Positions 51,024 through 58,519 of a DNA stretch of 64,000 bases are shown piece after piece. The stretch's first letter is position 1, and every line of letters begins with the position of its first letter. The position numbers were made by a program, and so were the translations under genes. The notes under the pieces are model-generated. The model had not been told where the DNA came from and did no database searches. It saw nothing but the letters and a program-made list of their open reading frames with translations. Origin of the DNA: a virus; IMG/VR virus record IMGVR_UViG_3300042314_000891, positions 1 through 64,000 of that record; one strand, given 5' to 3'.

Positions 51024-51941
51024 TTATAGATTTGAGACCAATAGGTGATGAAAGATACTCGGTTAATCAAATTAAAAATGTTCTTTAAAATATAAGCACA
51101 TAGTAGACTAGTTCTACATAGTGTACATCGGCCGCCTATGGTCGTGAAATAAACTACGAAAGTAGGATAAAGTGAATCATTTGGTTTAAGTGATTTGCGG
51201 CTTCGAAAGGAGCTTGAGTAGGCAAGTGGAATATCATTTCACCTTTAGTATTGAGGGTAACACTGTAAAGAGGGTGGTGAAATGACTGGGCTAAAGTAGA
51301 TAGTTCAGTTGAGGTGGGAACACCAATAAGAATAATCCATAGAGTTATTGCGAGAAACTGAAACTTAATCCCTTTCAACAATTGCGTGATTCAATATTAG
51401 AGTTTGCTTAAAACCGAAAGGTAAGATAAAGTACGAGTGGTGTCGTTATTATCCTTACTCTTCACCTACCAAGGTAGGAGTTATGAAGCAAACTTAAAGT
51501 ATGGTGTTAGGGATAACACATCGAGTAGTTCAGTATTCTGTTGTTCAAAAGATAACGGAGCAGGTTGGCGAACCACTACTTGAAACCATCTACAAACCAA
51601 ACTCAATTTGCCGGTTAGTGCAAACTATAAACAAAAAGAGCAAAAGTGTTCGTCAGTTGCAAACGAAAGGTGCGTACATAGTAGGGAGTTGTTCCTTGCC
51701 ACGATACCTCCGCAAGAGGTCTGTGATTCTTTCGAAAAACTTCTAACACCGCAAGTGTGAATCTGTTCGGCAGAGTAGAAGAAGCGGAGTAAAGAGAGAG
51801 TAGTTTGTAACTTTATGAGTGGTTGGCTTAACTAACCCGCATTGAATCGGTACTATCCAAAAGATAGTGGAAAAGTTGGGAAACAATAATCCAACGAAAG
51901 CTGGTTCTTTTACGTGAGTATTCTCATCCGTAATAATATAA
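51024..51941 (+). ncRNA. Giant structured non-coding RNA candidate (~920 nt)
   Basis: There is no plausible gene: frames on both strands are short, lack ribosome-binding sites and look random. Base composition is richer in G than the flanking coding DNA. Many tight hairpins are visible, several with GNRA loops: GTAGA/TCTAC 51103-51117, CTAC-GAAA-GTAG 51154-51165, ATTTCACC/GGTGAAAT 51236-51283, ACC-GAAA-GGT 51413-51422, CCTAC-CAAG-GTAGG 51465-51478, GTGTTA-GGGA-TAACAC 51504-51519, ACCTC/GAGGT 51706-51720, ACAC/GTGT 51746-51758, ACTATC/GATAGT 51852-51868, GTTGG/CCAAC 51875-51895, TGAG/CTCA 51915-51926. It has its own promoter and ends at a tRNA 5' end, where RNase P would cut. Size and phage tRNA setting resemble GOLLD and ROOL ornate RNAs, but identity is not established. 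Confidence 0.7.
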
Positions 51942-53525: not shown

Positions 53526-55715
53526 ATGAAAAAGTTACAAATCACTCTAATAGGTATTTTCCTATTATTAGGTTGTGCAAAGGAAGAAGCACTACAACCA
53601 ACAATAATTGATACTCCACCATCTGTATTCACAGAGGATGCAATCAATGTTACACTAAAATCTGCATTTGTTGTAGGTAAAGTACAAGATGTTGCATATT
53701 CACCTACAATTGAACGTGGGTTTATTTATGCAAGTAATGCAGATGTGAATGGATATGGTAATACCATTAAATTAGATACGAATATTACAATATTCAAATC
53801 ACAACTAACCAAACTAACCCCCAATAAAACTTATTACTATAAAGCATACGCCAAAAACAAATATGGTACTGCTTATGGTGAATTGAAGAATTTTACAACG
53901 GGAGATTATCTTTTACCAACTTTAACTACCGATAGTTTAGGCAATATAACTCTTACATCGGTAAAACTATATGGTAATATCACAGATGATGGCGAAACGC
54001 CCATATTAAAGCGTGGATTCTGTATTAGTACTAACCCAACACCAACAACTACCGATAGCACATTCAATACGGGTAATGGGATGGGTTTATTTGATTTAGT
54101 TGTAATCAAACTAAAAGCAGGTACAAAGTACAATGTTCGTGCCTTTGCTACAAATGCTATGGGTACATCCTATGGTAAAGAAATCAGTTTTTCAACATTA
54201 GATTATAAACTACCTACAATCCAAACAAATTCAGTAACGGATATTGGATTAAATGTAGCAACATTAAGTGGGAATGTAAAAGATTTAGGTAGAGGTGAGT
54301 TAAAGGAACGTGGGATAGTTTTATCCAAATCACAAAACCCAACTATTGATGATATGAAATTCAAATCATCGGTTACGGATTTGGGAGAGTATAAGATTGT
54401 AGTTACTAAATTAGAAGTAAATACTAAATACTACGCAAGAGCATATACGCAGAATGAAGCAGGTATTGTATATGGTGATGAAGTAAATTTCTCAACATTA
54501 GATTATACATTTGCAAAAATATCTACCAACGATATTGGGAATATCTCATTTAGGAGTGCAAGAATTGGTGGTGAGGTTACAAACGAAGGTAATACACCCG
54601 TAACTGAAAGAGGTGTAGTAATTAGTAGAGAGAAAACACCTACAATTTCAGATAGAAAACTTACAGTAGGAAATGGTTTGGGTGGATATATGGTAGATGT
54701 AAATGAACTGATACCTAATTCAACATACTATATTAGAGCATATTGTATAAACTCAAAGGGTATAGTTTATGGTAATGAACGAAATTTCAGAACTTTGGAT
54801 GATACACCTCCACCAGCTCCAATAGTATCTATACCTACTATACCATCATCGCCTACAACACCACCACCAACAACATTTGTACCTGGACCTGTTGTAACAA
54901 CACCACCACCAACACTATCGGCATTGCCGGAGTATGTGAGTGTACCTGATAGTAGATTTGAACAGGCACTAATAGATAGAGGATACGATTTTGTATTGGA
55001 TGGTAGAATAAGAACTGCACCAATCGCAAATGTAACTACAATTGAGATATTAGATAATATGAATATCAGTAATATCAGAGGTATAGAAGCATTCCCTAAT
55101 CTACAACGATTGCGTATTATTCACAATCAAATTAGTAGTGTAGATTTATCTAAAAATCCTAACTTAACTTGGGTTTCCTTTTGGGATAATAAATTGACAA
55201 GTATTGATGTGAGTTCATTGTATAAGTTAGAGTATTTTGGAGCAGGTGATAATGATATTGTAACATTTGATGTTTCCAGAAATTACAATCTAAATGAATT
55301 GGATTTTGGTAATACGGAAGGTAGAGCTGGATATGGAACAACTCGAGGTGTAACATCTATTGATATTTCACACAATCCAAAAATGCGCAGATTATATATG
55401 CAAAACAATAGATTGACAAGTTTGAATATTAGTAGAAATAAATTGATTGAAGATGTTTGGGCGCATGATAATAAAATTGAATCTTTGGATTGTAGTAATA
55501 ACCCGAATTTATCATTTATAATAATGTGGAATAATAATTTAAGATACTTAAATATAAAAGGAACATATCAGGGTGGAGTGCCAGCACGTTTATATACAAA
55601 AAATAACCCTAATTTAGCAGAAATTAAAGTTACAAATGCAAGTAATATTTTAGCAAGAAGACAATTTTGTGAATATTGTTTCGTAATAGATAGTTGGACA
55701 AAATATGTAGAATAA
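53526..55715 (+). CDS. Surface lipoprotein with FN3-like repeats and leucine-rich repeats
   Basis: 729 residues. A lipoprotein signal peptide ends LLLGC near residue 17. The mature N-terminus C-A-K-E-E fits the Bacteroidota lipoprotein export signal (K then two acidic residues just after Cys), predicting display on the outer face of the outer membrane. Residues ~30-430 hold four or five beta repeats of ~95 residues (YYKAYAKNKYGTAYGE, YNVRAFATNAMGTSYGKE, YYARAYTQNEAGIVYGDE), as in Bacteroidota FN3-like domains. A Pro/Thr-rich linker (~432-470) leads to C-terminal leucine-rich repeats (VDLSKNPNLTWVSFWDNKLT). It stands alone among tRNA genes with its own promoter, like a cargo (moron) gene; it may alter the infected cell surface, for example to block superinfection. 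Confidence 0.85.
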   Translation: MKKLQITLIGIFLLLGCAKEEALQPTIIDTPPSVFTEDAINVTLKSAFVVGKVQDVAYSPTIERGFIYASNADVNGYGNTIKLDTNITIFKSQLTKLTPNKTYYYKAYAKNKYGTAYGELKNFTTGDYLLPTLTTDSLGNITLTSVKLYGNITDDGETPILKRGFCISTNPTPTTTDSTFNTGNGMGLFDLVVIKLKAGTKYNVRAFATNAMGTSYGKEISFSTLDYKLPTIQTNSVTDIGLNVATLSGNVKDLGRGELKERGIVLSKSQNPTIDDMKFKSSVTDLGEYKIVVTKLEVNTKYYARAYTQNEAGIVYGDEVNFSTLDYTFAKISTNDIGNISFRSARIGGEVTNEGNTPVTERGVVISREKTPTISDRKLTVGNGLGGYMVDVNELIPNSTYYIRAYCINSKGIVYGNERNFRTLDDTPPPAPIVSIPTIPSSPTTPPPTTFVPGPVVTTPPPTLSALPEYVSVPDSRFEQALIDRGYDFVLDGRIRTAPIANVTTIEILDNMNISNIRGIEAFPNLQRLRIIHNQISSVDLSKNPNLTWVSFWDNKLTSIDVSSLYKLEYFGAGDNDIVTFDVSRNYNLNELDFGNTEGRAGYGTTRGVTSIDISHNPKMRRLYMQNNRLTSLNISRNKLIEDVWAHDNKIESLDCSNNPNLSFIIMWNNNLRYLNIKGTYQGGVPARLYTKNNPNLAEIKVTNASNILARRQFCEYCFVIDSWTKYVE

Positions 55716-55754: not shown

Positions 55755-55837
55755 GCTCGAATGTTGGAATGGTAGACAAGACAGACTTAAAATCTGTTGT
55801 CCGTATGGGCGTGTGGGTTCAAGTCCCTCTTCGAGTA
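55755..55837 (+). tRNA. tRNA-Leu (TAA)
   Basis: Acceptor GCTCGAA/TTCGAGT, stem ACAGA/TCTGT, loop CTTAAAA, long variable arm (TGTCCGTATGGGCGT), T-arm present. Confidence 0.92.
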
Positions 55838-55920: not shown

Positions 55921-55930
55921 AAAGAAATAT

Positions 55931-56039
55931 GCCGGAGTGGCGGAACAAATGGGAAGTACAACCATTAGACGTGCCTGATTCGAAGTGGTGCAGTAACCGA
56001 AAAGGACTGCGTGTGGGTAGCCAATCCCTCCTCCGGTAC
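55931..56039 (+). ncRNA. tRNA-like RNA with D-loop hairpin insertion and long variable arm
   Basis: Acceptor GCCGGAG/CTCCGGT and a Leu-type TGGCGG D-arm start are clear. A hairpin AATGG/CCATT is inserted in the D-loop, a long arm GCAGT/ACTGC occurs before the T-arm, and the T-loop is TAGCCAAT instead of TTCGAAT. No proper anticodon arm forms. It is a degenerate tRNA-Leu or a tRNA-shaped RNA with another job. Confidence 0.5.
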
Positions 56040-56045
56040 CTTATT

Positions 56046-56093
56046 TATCGTTGAAAGAAACGATATTAGATTTTATCGTTAGATTAAACGATA
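56046..56093 (+). repeat. Twin hairpins
   Basis: Two consecutive hairpins with the same arms, TATCGTT ... AAACGATA (56046-56065 and 56074-56093), lie immediately before the next tRNA. Confidence 0.7.
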
Positions 56094-56094
56094 T

Positions 56095-56168
56095 GGACTT
56101 GTAGCTCACTCGGTTAGAGCAGTTGACTCATAATCAAAAGGTAGTAGGTTCGATTCCTACCTGGTCCA
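56095..56168 (+). tRNA. tRNA with CAT anticodon (Met or Ile2)
   Basis: Acceptor GGACTTG/CTGGTCC (one mismatch), loop CTCATAA, T-arm GTAGG/CCTAC, discriminator A, CCA not encoded. Confidence 0.88.
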
Positions 56169-56172
56169 CAAC

Positions 56173-56388
56173 GAGTAAGAGATACTCGGTAGTCTTTAAT
56201 CCAAGACTCATTTAACAATGGATAGGGTATTGGACCGGACATCCTTAAACGCCGGTGTCGTGGGAATAAAGGAGAACGACACATCTCCTCCCCGTAGTGT
56301 TGACTTTTTAAGCAGTAAGATGCATTGGGTTTTTGAAAGGAAAAACTATAAATAACTACTCACAAGTAATCTCAATGTGGGGAAATTT
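56173..56388 (+). ncRNA. Structured spacer RNA between tRNAs
   Basis: 216 nt without a gene. Hairpins GAGTA/TACTC (56173-56187), AGTCTT/AAGACT (56191-56208) and GTGTCGT/ACGACAC (56255-56282) are visible. RNase P and tRNA 3' processing at the flanking tRNAs would release it as a discrete RNA. Confidence 0.4.
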
Positions 56389-56463
56389 GCAGGTATAGCA
56401 CAGTGGTTAGTGCTCTGGTCTTCCAAACCGGAGACGTCAGTTCGAATCTGACTACCTGCTCCA
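56389..56463 (+). tRNA. tRNA-Gly (TCC)
   Basis: Acceptor GCAGGTA/TACCTGC, loop CTTCCAA, T-arm GTCAG/CTGAC, discriminator T, CCA encoded; a canonical Gly tRNA. Confidence 0.93.
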
Positions 56464-56578
56464 TAAGGAGCTCCCGCTTTAAGGTGAAGGACACGCGGGC
56501 GAATAACTTTCAGAGTAAGTTGTAAAAGAACTCGAAACCTTAAGTCTAGTGTGGGATGAGACTCCTACCCACACATTT
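56464..56578 (+). ncRNA. Structured spacer RNA between tRNAs
   Basis: CCCGC/GCGGG (56473-56499), AACTT/AAGTT and GTGTGGG/CCCACAC (56549-56574) hairpins fill this 115-nt spacer; TAAGGT can also pair with ACCTTA across it. Confidence 0.4.
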
Positions 56579-56662
56579 GGGAGTATCGCATAGTGGCAAT
56601 TGCGGGTGACTGTAAATCACTTCTCTACGAGTTCGGAGGTTCGAGTCCTTCTACTCCCACCA
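56579..56662 (+). tRNA. tRNA-Tyr (GTA)
   Basis: Acceptor GGGAGTA/TACTCCC, stem GTGA/TCAC, loop CTGTAAA, long variable arm, T-arm GGAGG/CCTTC, CCA encoded. Confidence 0.92.
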
Positions 56663-56678
56663 AATAATCCCAATAAAG

Positions 56679-56712
56679 TTTGGAATTATAAAAGAAAATA
56701 CTTATATTTGTA
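56679..56712 (+). promoter_or_regulatory. Host-type promoter inside the tRNA array
   Basis: TTTGG at 56679 and TTATATTTGTA at 56702; tRNA-Glu starts at 56716. Confidence 0.75.
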
Positions 56713-56715
56713 AAT

Positions 56716-56789
56716 GCTCCGTTCGTCTAATTGGTTAGGACATCCGCCTTTCACGTGGAAGCTTACGGGTTCGATTCCCGTACGGAGTA
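56716..56789 (+). tRNA. tRNA-Glu (TTC)
   Basis: Acceptor GCTCCGT/ACGGAGT, stem TCCGC/GTGGA, loop CTTTCAC, T-arm ACGGG/CCCGT. Confidence 0.92.
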
Positions 56790-56793
56790 CAAA

Positions 56794-56881
56794 AGATTAA
56801 CGTAAGTCGCCTATGTGGGTGAAACTAATTCCTCATTTGGGGAAGAGAAGATGTGATTTCTTTAATAGGTGTAGTTAATCT
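56794..56881 (+). ncRNA. Structured small RNA closed by nested stems
   Basis: AGATTAAC (56794) pairs with GTTAATCT (56874) over 8 bp, and inside it CGCCTAT (56808) pairs with ATAGGTG (56865). TTCC/GGAA hairpins lie within. The fold spans nearly the whole spacer between two tRNAs, which suggests a small RNA rather than random spacer. Confidence 0.55.
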
Positions 56882-56887
56882 TTAATT

Positions 56888-56960
56888 GCTTCCGTAGCTC
56901 ATATGGTAGAGCAGCTGACTTGTAATCAGCAGGTGGTTGGTTCGAGCCCGACCGGAAGCT
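56888..56960 (+). tRNA. tRNA-Thr (TGT)
   Basis: Acceptor GCTTCCG/CGGAAGC, stem GCTGA/TCAGC, loop CTTGTAA, T-arm GTTGG/CCGAC. Confidence 0.93.
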
Positions 56961-57051
56961 CCGATTGATGTTTCGTTTGATGGTATGTTTTTAAGTTGCC
57001 AAAGTGCCGAAAGGATTACTTGATAAGTAAAAAGGATAAACCATCGTATTT
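56961..57051 (+). ncRNA. Structured spacer RNA
   Basis: GATGGT (56979) pairs with ACCATC (57040), enclosing the hairpin TTACTT/AAGTAA (57016-57030). No gene. Confidence 0.35.
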
Positions 57052-57201
57052 GGCTCTATAATTGTTGAGGTAGCACCAAAGACAATGAGTGGGTGAATGA
57101 TGATTAAATGTAGGTGACACTCCTTAATACTAGGATTGGAGAGAAGAGTTGGTGCATTTAGTAAGTAGTTCATAAGATGGGTTCGATTCCCATTAGAGCT
57201 A
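57052..57201 (+). ncRNA. tRNA-like RNA (150 nt) with large internal insertion
   Basis: Acceptor GGCTCTA/TAGAGCT and a perfect T-arm ATGGG-TTCGATT-CCCAT mark a tRNA-like end, but ~120 nt separate them instead of ~45. The interior shows ATTGT/ACAAT and GCACCAA/TTGGTGC stems, and no standard anticodon arm. The plan (acceptor plus T-arm plus large loop) recalls tmRNA, but no tag frame is evident and a real tmRNA lies at 50301. A tRNA with a small intron is the alternative. Confidence 0.6.
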
Positions 57202-57392
57202 CAAAACAAACGAAGACTATGGTGTAACCCCATGGTATATAAAATCCAAAATGGTCCTGTTGAAGCCGGAATAGTCATACAGGTCAGGAGAGAGTTACTA
57301 TAAGTGGGGAGTAATTAACCCAATACGAAATGTAACCACCAATGAAAATTGGTTATGATGTGTAGAAGGACACAAAAAGTTTGTTTTAATTT
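57202..57392 (+). ncRNA. Structured spacer RNA
   Basis: Hairpins CCTGT/ACAGG (57256-57283), ACCAAT/ATTGGT (57338-57353) and TGTGT/ACACA (57359-57374) are present in 191 nt with no gene. Confidence 0.4.
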
Positions 57393-57466
57393 AGTTCGTT
57401 GGTGTAGAGGCCCAACATGCTTCCCTGTCACGGAAGAGACCACGGGTTCGAATCCCGTACGAACTG
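57393..57466 (+). tRNA. tRNA-Asp (GTC)
   Basis: Acceptor AGTTCGT/ACGAACT, stem CTTCC/GGAAG, loop CTGTCAC, T-arm ACGGG/CCCGT, discriminator G as expected for Asp. Confidence 0.93.
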
Positions 57467-57471
57467 CGAAT

Positions 57472-57542
57472 TGCTCGATGGTGTAGCGGTAGCACAACTG
57501 TTTTTGGTGCAGTTAGGGTTGGTTCGAATCCAGCTCGGGTAA
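57472..57542 (+). tRNA. tRNA-Gln (TTG)
   Basis: Acceptor TGCTCGA/TCGGGTA (two G-U pairs), stem ACTGT/GCAGT, loop TTTTGGT, T-arm GTTGG/CCAGC. Confidence 0.9.
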
Positions 57543-57559
57543 CATTAAATAATATTATT

Positions 57560-57901
57560 ATGAAAGAATTAGGAATGTCTATTATGCTTTTATTCAACAC
57601 ATTGGGTGGTTCAATTGACCCAAAGTTTAGTGATGAAGCACCTTTGGTTGAAACTATAAAAATTGAAATCAGAGAATTACAAAGAAAAATCCAATGGGTT
57701 GATGCAACCGATGAGGATTATGCAAGTAAGTATGTTCGTATAGAAAAATTATCGAAAGATATTATAAAGAAAAAAGAACAACTTAAAAATATGGAGAAAC
57801 GTGCCAAACTTAAACAAAAGTGGGCATTGGAAGATTCATTGGAAATCCGTAAGAAATATCCACCAATTGTTTTGGATACTTTAAAGTCAGAACAAATTTA
57901 G
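57560..57901 (+). CDS. Small coiled-coil protein within the tRNA array
   Basis: 113 residues. The central part (IKIEIRELQRKIQWVD, RIEKLSKDIIKKKEQLKNME) is a charged coiled coil. No family recognised. It is embedded between tRNA-Gln and tRNA-Ser with only 17 and 5 base gaps, so its message is cut from the polycistronic tRNA transcript. Confidence 0.65.
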   Translation: MKELGMSIMLLFNTLGGSIDPKFSDEAPLVETIKIEIRELQRKIQWVDATDEDYASKYVRIEKLSKDIIKKKEQLKNMEKRAKLKQKWALEDSLEIRKKYPPIVLDTLKSEQI

Positions 57902-57906
57902 TAAAA

Positions 57907-57992
57907 GGAGGGTTGGCAGAGTTGGTCTATTGCACCGGTCTTGAAAACCGGAGTCTGTAACAGGACCGTGAGTTCGAATCTCACACCCTCCT
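57907..57992 (+). tRNA. tRNA-Ser (TGA)
   Basis: Acceptor GGAGGGT/ACCCTCC, stem CCGGT/ACCGG, loop CTTGAAA, long variable arm, T-arm GTGAG/CTCAC. Discriminator is T, not the usual G. Confidence 0.92.
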
Positions 57993-57997
57993 CATCT

Positions 57998-58069
57998 GGC
58001 TCCATAGGTAAACGGATATACCGTCGCTCTTCTAAAGCGAATTTCCAAGTTCGATTCTTGGTGGGGCTA
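57998..58069 (+). tRNA. tRNA-Arg (TCT)
   Basis: Acceptor GGCTCCA/TGGGGCT, stem TCGCT/AGCGA, loop CTTCTAA, T-arm CCAAG/CTTGG. Confidence 0.92.
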
Positions 58070-58075
58070 CAATAT

Positions 58076-58164
58076 AGAGGGTTGGGTGAGTGGCTTAAAC
58101 CAGCAGTTTGCTAAACTGTCGTGGGGGTAATTCTCCACCAGCGGTTCGAATCCGCTATCCTCTA
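58076..58164 (+). tRNA. tRNA-Ser (GCT)
   Basis: Acceptor AGAGGGT/ATCCTCT, stem GCAGT/ACTGT, loop TTGCTAA, long variable arm, T-arm AGCGG/CCGCT. Confidence 0.92.
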
Positions 58165-58178
58165 CATTTGTTATAAGT

Positions 58179-58190
58179 TAATATTTATAG
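58179..58190 (+). promoter_or_regulatory. Late-type promoter motif
   Basis: TAATATTTATAG lies directly before the ATG at 58193, so either the leader is extremely short or the motif is inactive. Confidence 0.35.
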
Positions 58191-58192
58191 GT

Positions 58193-58519
58193 ATGATAAA
58201 GTTAAAACACATATTGAAAGAAGAATTGGTAAAAGATACTGATTTTTTAGATTTTGCAGATAACAGATTGGGTGGAGCTACAAAAATAGCACAAACTGCT
58301 AAAGAAAAAGGTGGAGATGCATTACTAACATACCATCACTTTGCTGTTAAGCTACCTTATTATGAGAAAGCAAAAAATGGTGAACTAGATATTGATACCG
58401 CTAAAAAAGAGTTTATAGAAACATTGGGTAAAATATCATTAGATATGGACCAAACTACATTTCAAATTGAAGTAGGTAGATTGGAAGTATTGGGTGAACT
58501 ATTCATAAAAAATAAATAA
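58193..58519 (+). CDS. Small hypothetical protein
   Basis: 108 residues from the ATG at 58193, after the tRNA-Ser gene; longer in-frame extensions would run through the tRNA and are rejected. Helical and charged (IKLKHILKEELVKDTDFLDF, LDIDTAKKEFIETLGKISLD). Its start resembles that of the 2H phosphoesterase at 58730 (MKLRKILKE). No family recognised. Confidence 0.6.
   Translation: MIKLKHILKEELVKDTDFLDFADNRLGGATKIAQTAKEKGGDALLTYHHFAVKLPYYEKAKNGELDIDTAKKEFIETLGKISLDMDQTTFQIEVGRLEVLGELFIKNK

Follow-up and report, generated by a model that had tools for sequence, protein, structure and literature searches.

A putative structured small RNA family encoded between the tRNA genes of a phage

The tRNA-Glu/tRNA-Thr spacer and its predicted fold

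The stretch of DNA analysed here (the window, 64,000 nt in length) lies in an 85.8-kb virus record. At 50.3-58.2 kb of the window, ARAGORN and Rfam identify a tmRNA, a GOLLD RNA and 25 tRNA genes, one of the tRNAs being without clear identity. Within this stretch, the spacer between tRNA-Glu and tRNA-Thr is 97 nt long and is predicted to fold over almost its entire length (Table 1). The closing stem, P1, starts 1-2 nt 3' of tRNA-Glu and ends 4 nt 5' of tRNA-Thr; nested within it is a second stem, P2, which in the predicted fold encloses the three hairpins P3, P4 and P5.

Table 1. Features at the tRNA-Glu/tRNA-Thr locus (window coordinates)
Feature	Position	Strand	Basis and remarks
Bacteroidota-type promoter match, TTTG-N20-TATATTTG	56679-56710	+	Pattern; ends 5 nt before tRNA-Glu
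tRNA-Glu (ttc)	56716-56790	+	ARAGORN; Rfam 56716-56789
97-nt small RNA (whole tRNA-Glu/tRNA-Thr spacer), putative	56791-56887	+	Fold, covariance model R1
Closing stem P1, 10 bp	56792-56801 (5' strand) with 56874-56883 (3' strand)	+	Fold, alignment
Nested stem P2, 7 bp	56808-56814 (5' strand) with 56865-56871 (3' strand)	+	Fold, alignment
Hairpin P3, 3 bp, loop GUGAAA	56816-56827	+	Fold, alignment
Hairpin P4, UUCCUC-NNUU-GGGGAA	56829-56844	+	Alignment
Hairpin P5, 5 bp, 7-nt loop	56847-56863	+	Alignment
tRNA-Thr (tgt)	56888-56962	+	ARAGORN; Rfam 56888-56960

A sequence-only reading of this DNA had proposed a small RNA at 56794-56881, closed by two nested stems of 8 and 7 bp whose joint occurrence by chance was judged to be small. 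Both stems are present at that position and the inner one has the proposed 7 bp; the outer stem actually comprises 10 bp, of which 56794-56881 covers the inner 8. Nested stems of at least 8 and 7 bp arose in 46 of 20,000 dinucleotide shuffles of the spacer. With the threshold for the outer stem, near both ends, raised to 10 bp and that for the inner one kept at 7 bp, the count fell to 8 of 20,000. Nine window spacers of 45-600 nt were fold-tested, so that stems of the sizes first proposed would be expected about 0.02 times among them. The 121-nt stretch 56780-56900 has a minimum free energy of -35.2 kcal/mol (z -3.70), equalled by none of 200 shuffles. Folded without flanks, the spacer has a z of -3.16, and those of its two homologues, L082 and L090, have -4.32 and -2.36, respectively (100 shuffles each). 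The three internal hairpins go beyond the sequence-only reading, as do the conserved core and the exchangeable slot described below.

Homologues and compensatory changes

Six exact-pattern scans of viral_contigs matched many other contigs and yielded two homologues only, L082 and L090; because the scans require exact core letters, the three members are a lower bound. The other contigs matched by the patterns were inspected individually, except L146-L175, for which model R1 (see below) alone was used. One pattern applied to genome_contigs returned five stretches and no homologue. Two blastn searches against 50,697 phage records, with the spacer and with the L090 spacer, returned in one case two records of one phage sharing the same 19-nt match, and in the other none. 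The L082 spacer is identical to that of the window at 93 of 97 bases and is likewise located between tRNA-Glu and tRNA-Thr; the tRNA upstream of this pair is tRNA-Leu in L082 and tRNA-Tyr in the window. The L090 homologue, 78% identical over 91 bases, sits between tRNA-Arg and tRNA-Leu. All three copies thus lie directly between two tRNA genes (Glu-Thr, Glu-Thr and Arg-Leu).

In the three-row alignment of the window, L082 and L090, 97.8% of 93 cells are paired, and 5 of the 31 pairs show changes on both sides with pairing kept (one in P1, three in P2, one in P5). When partners were slid by 1-3 columns, no two-sided pairs appeared and at most 57% of cells were paired; column shuffles reached the observed values in 2 of 500 cases, with the exception of the count of further pair types (108 of 500). 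RNAalifold returned the same structure from the alignment. P2 carries its three two-sided compensatory pairs in L090 and has 100% of its cells paired. P1 shows one A-U to G-C change in L090 and one C-G to U-G change in L082, and two of its pairs are unformed in L090. In L090, one P5 pair is altered on both sides, from A-U to G-C, and another on one side only. P3 is invariant in all three members, as are all six pairs of P4, where variation falls at two loop positions only; since neither hairpin varies in its pairs, covariation gives no test of either. All five two-sided changes come from L090, and L082 contributes a single one-sided change.

Covariation in homologues had been named as the check on the original proposal, with homologues devoid of compensatory changes counting against it. 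Such changes are found, the two-sided ones coming from one divergent sequence, L090. A structured small RNA in this spacer, as first proposed, therefore gains support from two homologues that keep the fold, L090 by way of compensatory changes. For the predicted stems we regard the homologues as stronger evidence than the shuffle statistics, and the 97-nt folded RNA is very likely to be a real small RNA.

Covariance model R1 was built from the window RNA, L082 and L090, so these members match it by construction; the window RNA scores 116.6 bits. The model was run over the window, L001-L175, L178-L179 and L180-L194. Besides the members and L081, which is the window's own copy, it gave weak matches in L026 (20.9 bits, E 0.34), L027 (18.0 bits, E 1.4), L099 (19.9 bits, E 0.46, and 15.9 bits, E 4.6) and L178 (12.3 bits, E 2). 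These were taken as chance matches and rejected as homologues; L026, L027 and L099 are without a tRNA gene according to ARAGORN.

A 30-nt stretch, GUGGGUGAAACUAAUUCCUCNNUUGGGGAA, chosen after inspection of the alignment, is the same in all three copies at 28 positions, i.e., everywhere except the two N. From P2 to P2, the comparison with L090 finds 18 of 22 unpaired and 33 of 42 paired positions conserved. Because unpaired positions are hardly better kept than paired ones, it is on the 30-nt stretch that any argument for a conserved binding surface depends. It is possible, and we suggest it with low confidence, that this stretch binds in trans to a protein or an RNA, of either host or phage, and that the small RNA acts as a decoy or regulator.

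Alternative inserts in the Glu-Thr slot

Relatives of the window were drawn from the best 80 of 261 polymerase matches, and tRNA genes occur in only five of these 80 loci (L003, L004, L005, L006 and L008), so the comparison of slots rests on few records. A tRNA-Glu followed by a tRNA-Thr is found in 11 of 194 loci. Four of these are repeats (L176 is the contig of L082, L188 is L006, L193 is L005 and L081 is the window), which, with the window included, leaves eight distinct records. The slot holds the 97-nt RNA in the window and L082, a 67-nt RNA in L006, an RNA of 189-196 nt in L003, L189 and L191, a 107-nt two-hairpin insert in L190, and an HNH gene in L005 (Pfam HNH_3, E 2.7e-8). Phages of this group can do without the 97-nt RNA, since six of the eight Glu-Thr records lack it.

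In the window and L006, the Tyr-Glu spacer (53/53) and tRNA-Thr (75/75) are identical, while the RNA between differs and model R1 finds no match in L006; with flanks that match around a differing RNA, the insert has been exchanged. The two tRNA-Glu genes have 9 differences over 75 positions, none of them before position 26, and one exchange edge possibly lies inside tRNA-Glu. L003 and L006 also have HNH genes in spacers between tRNAs, but a role of these genes in driving the exchange of inserts is a guess. More broadly, the tRNA arrays of this phage group may conceivably serve as expression islands whose single slots hold alternative closed-stem RNAs swapped by recombination, perhaps HNH-driven; such RNAs would act as decoys that counter the defences of the host or would regulate its translation apparatus. 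This is a speculative picture that we consider unlikely.

The other inserts differ in how well their structures are supported. In the ~190-nt RNA, 2 of 52 pairs are changed on both sides among three sequences, yet its spacer in L003 is no more stable when folded than shuffled sequences are (z -0.60). A UAAUUCC-loop-GGGGAA hairpin is shared by this RNA and the 97-nt RNA of the same slot and could be the mark of a partner that both bind. Its chance figure of 0.04 per window overstates the weight of the motif because it was chosen after both RNAs had been seen; L003, a member of the 190-nt group, misses the pattern, and L133 and L147, which are without tRNA genes, match it. For the 67-nt RNA of L006, none of 19 pairs is changed on both sides in an alignment whose L192 row seems to be out of register, which leaves folding and conservation as the support for the structure of this RNA. 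The 67-nt RNA around GATACGAGCCCCGAAAGTTCG occurs in eight contigs (e.g., L189 11208-11276, L190 11856-11924 and L192 9888-9957), this core being the letters searched for and hence identical across loci by construction. Six of these contigs have it between tRNA-Thr and tRNA-Asp; in L004 it immediately precedes tRNA-Thr, and in L006 it occupies the Glu-Thr slot.

Several further elements were seen in the array. An element at 57052-57200 resembles a tRNA in having a T-arm and 7 bp of acceptor-like pairing, GGCTCTA/TAGAGCT (by eye); its long middle part differs between the window and L006, and ARAGORN calls no tRNA there. For another closed-stem spacer element, at 57203-57387 (AAAACAAAC/GTTTGTTTT), the matching stretch has 94% identity in L003 and 90% in L005, and L006 carries it too. 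The Ala-Met spacer (55921-56094), 98.9% identical in L006, contains an element that starts GCCGGAGTGGCGGAAC and closes CTCCGG, like the start of tRNA-Leu (by eye). Between tRNA-His and tRNA-Leu there is a 729-aa reading frame (53526-55715) with a lipoprotein-like start (by eye); the same gap in L005 measures only 135 nt.

Expression, identity and relation to known RNAs

A Bacteroidota-type promoter match precedes tRNA-Glu (Table 1). The pattern TTTG-N18-21-TAnnTTTG has 16 matches on both strands of the window against 3.28 expected, about five times the expectation, and none of 100 shuffles reaches 16; other matches precede the tmRNA and the tRNA-Leu at 55755. A full promoter match also precedes tRNA-Arg in L090; in L082 there is only a -7-type box, whose first base lies 46 nt upstream of tRNA-Glu. 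TAnnTTTG at -7 with TTTG near -33 is given as the consensus deduced for Bacteroides fragilis (PMC7366714), and the same source mentions that no -33 motif was detected in Flavobacterium johnsoniae. The promoter matches, which are our whole basis for a host assignment, point to the phylum Bacteroidota. Against this stands the best polymerase match to a named phage, 49.6% identical, in Microcystis phage Mel-JY01, recorded from a cyanobacterium.

Transcription would start at the promoter just 5' of tRNA-Glu, and the RNA would be co-transcribed with the tRNAs. RNase P cleavage at the 5' end of tRNA-Thr, together with 3' processing of tRNA-Glu, would then release a linear RNA of ~97 nt with both ends shielded by the closing stem. 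The position of the RNA and the promoter match before tRNA-Glu make such release, through processing of the flanking tRNAs, plausible. For comparison, 3'ETS-leuZ of E. coli is cut out of a tRNA precursor and then functions in trans, as a sponge for the small RNAs RyhB and RybB (PMC8166272). The 97-nt RNA is likened to it as a tRNA-precursor piece with presumed excision, although 3'ETS-leuZ is bacterial and has 53 nt.

In searches against Rfam 15, no family was found in the spacer when the whole window was scanned at the gathering score, and none of 21 matches at permissive thresholds in 56000-58300 overlaps it. The spacer alone, scanned up to E 10, gave only Plastid-psbN on the other strand (12.4 bits versus the 50 required, E 6.9). 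The GOLLD model (RF02032) has no match in the spacer. Among the matches listed in the literature, where coverage of subscription journals is poor, no title or abstract describes the 97-nt RNA.

The closing stem might merely prevent pre-tRNA misfolding and aid cleavage, the excised piece being degraded. This would agree with the slots of L003, L006, L189 and L191, which hold other inserts with closing stems of their own, as if any closed structure sufficed; however, such a role would not need 28 of 30 core positions to be kept between contigs with different flanking tRNAs. Moreover, 12 of the 25 gaps between neighbouring tRNA/tmRNA genes in the window are no longer than 8 nt, so that tRNAs in the window need no such spacer, and we think this explanation improbable. 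A cloverleaf-like look (by eye) is lent to the RNA by its inner four-way junction, its 7-bp outer arm and its last arm of 5 bp with a 7-nt loop. Nevertheless, a decayed tRNA or tRNA-like remnant is very unlikely, as the loop of the middle arm has 4 nt, neither the tRNA model (RF00005), up to E 10, nor ARAGORN finds a tRNA in the 97 nt, and conservation across three contigs argues against decay.

The spacer also contains a 21-codon frame (56813-56878) that could encode a small basic peptide and is open across the stretch in all three members, with ATG as the start in the window and L082 and TTG in L090. The window and L082 differ in it by one non-synonymous and one synonymous change, which is uninformative. 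Between the window and L090, however, 9 of 22 codons (start and stop included) differ non-synonymously and one synonymously, the stop is lost in L090 so that the frame continues through tRNA-Leu, and it is the stems that covary instead; we give a peptide hardly any credence. We consider it probable, with good confidence, that the spacer encodes a structured phage small RNA, expressed within a tRNA operon and belonging to a new family outside Rfam 15.

Small stable RNAs in the tRNA cluster of phage T4 have long been known. T4 rnaC (species 1) and rnaD (species 2) are likewise small RNAs inside a phage tRNA cluster, beside tRNA-Arg, and the 97-nt RNA resembles them, in all three members, in being a non-tRNA within such a cluster. 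They differ from it in size (139 and 119 nt), in predicted fold, and in lying at one end of the cluster rather than between two tRNAs; rnaC also carries a T-arm-like stretch (by eye). In the T4 cluster, tRNA-Arg separates rnaC and rnaD from segB, a homing endonuclease gene. The two T4 RNAs are termed RNAs of yet unknown functions and classed as late in PMC9697503, which cites its own Northern blot. Rfam at the gathering score lists neither, and R1, searched up to E 10, has no match in the T4 cluster (L179), although a three-sequence model could miss a distant relative. The 97-nt RNA is therefore grouped with rnaC and rnaD by kind and not by family. GOLLD, a structured RNA of phages and prophages often found near tRNA islands, forms a 14-mer cage (PMC12286853); its Rfam match here spans 410 nt, compared with 97 nt for the spacer RNA. 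This GOLLD RNA (51521-51930; RF02032, 292.6 bits) lies just upstream of the tRNA array, and GOLLD is also present in L003, L005 and L006.

The best reading is thus that the spacer encodes a new small-RNA family of a known kind, that of phage tRNA-cluster RNAs. The function of the T4 tRNA-cluster small RNAs is still described as unknown (PMC9697503), and a compact 97-nt family with covariation support, placed between different tRNA pairs, would be a clean object for sequencing and deletion tests. The exchangeable slot suggests that the spacers of phage tRNA arrays can be occupied by cargo under selection instead of filler.
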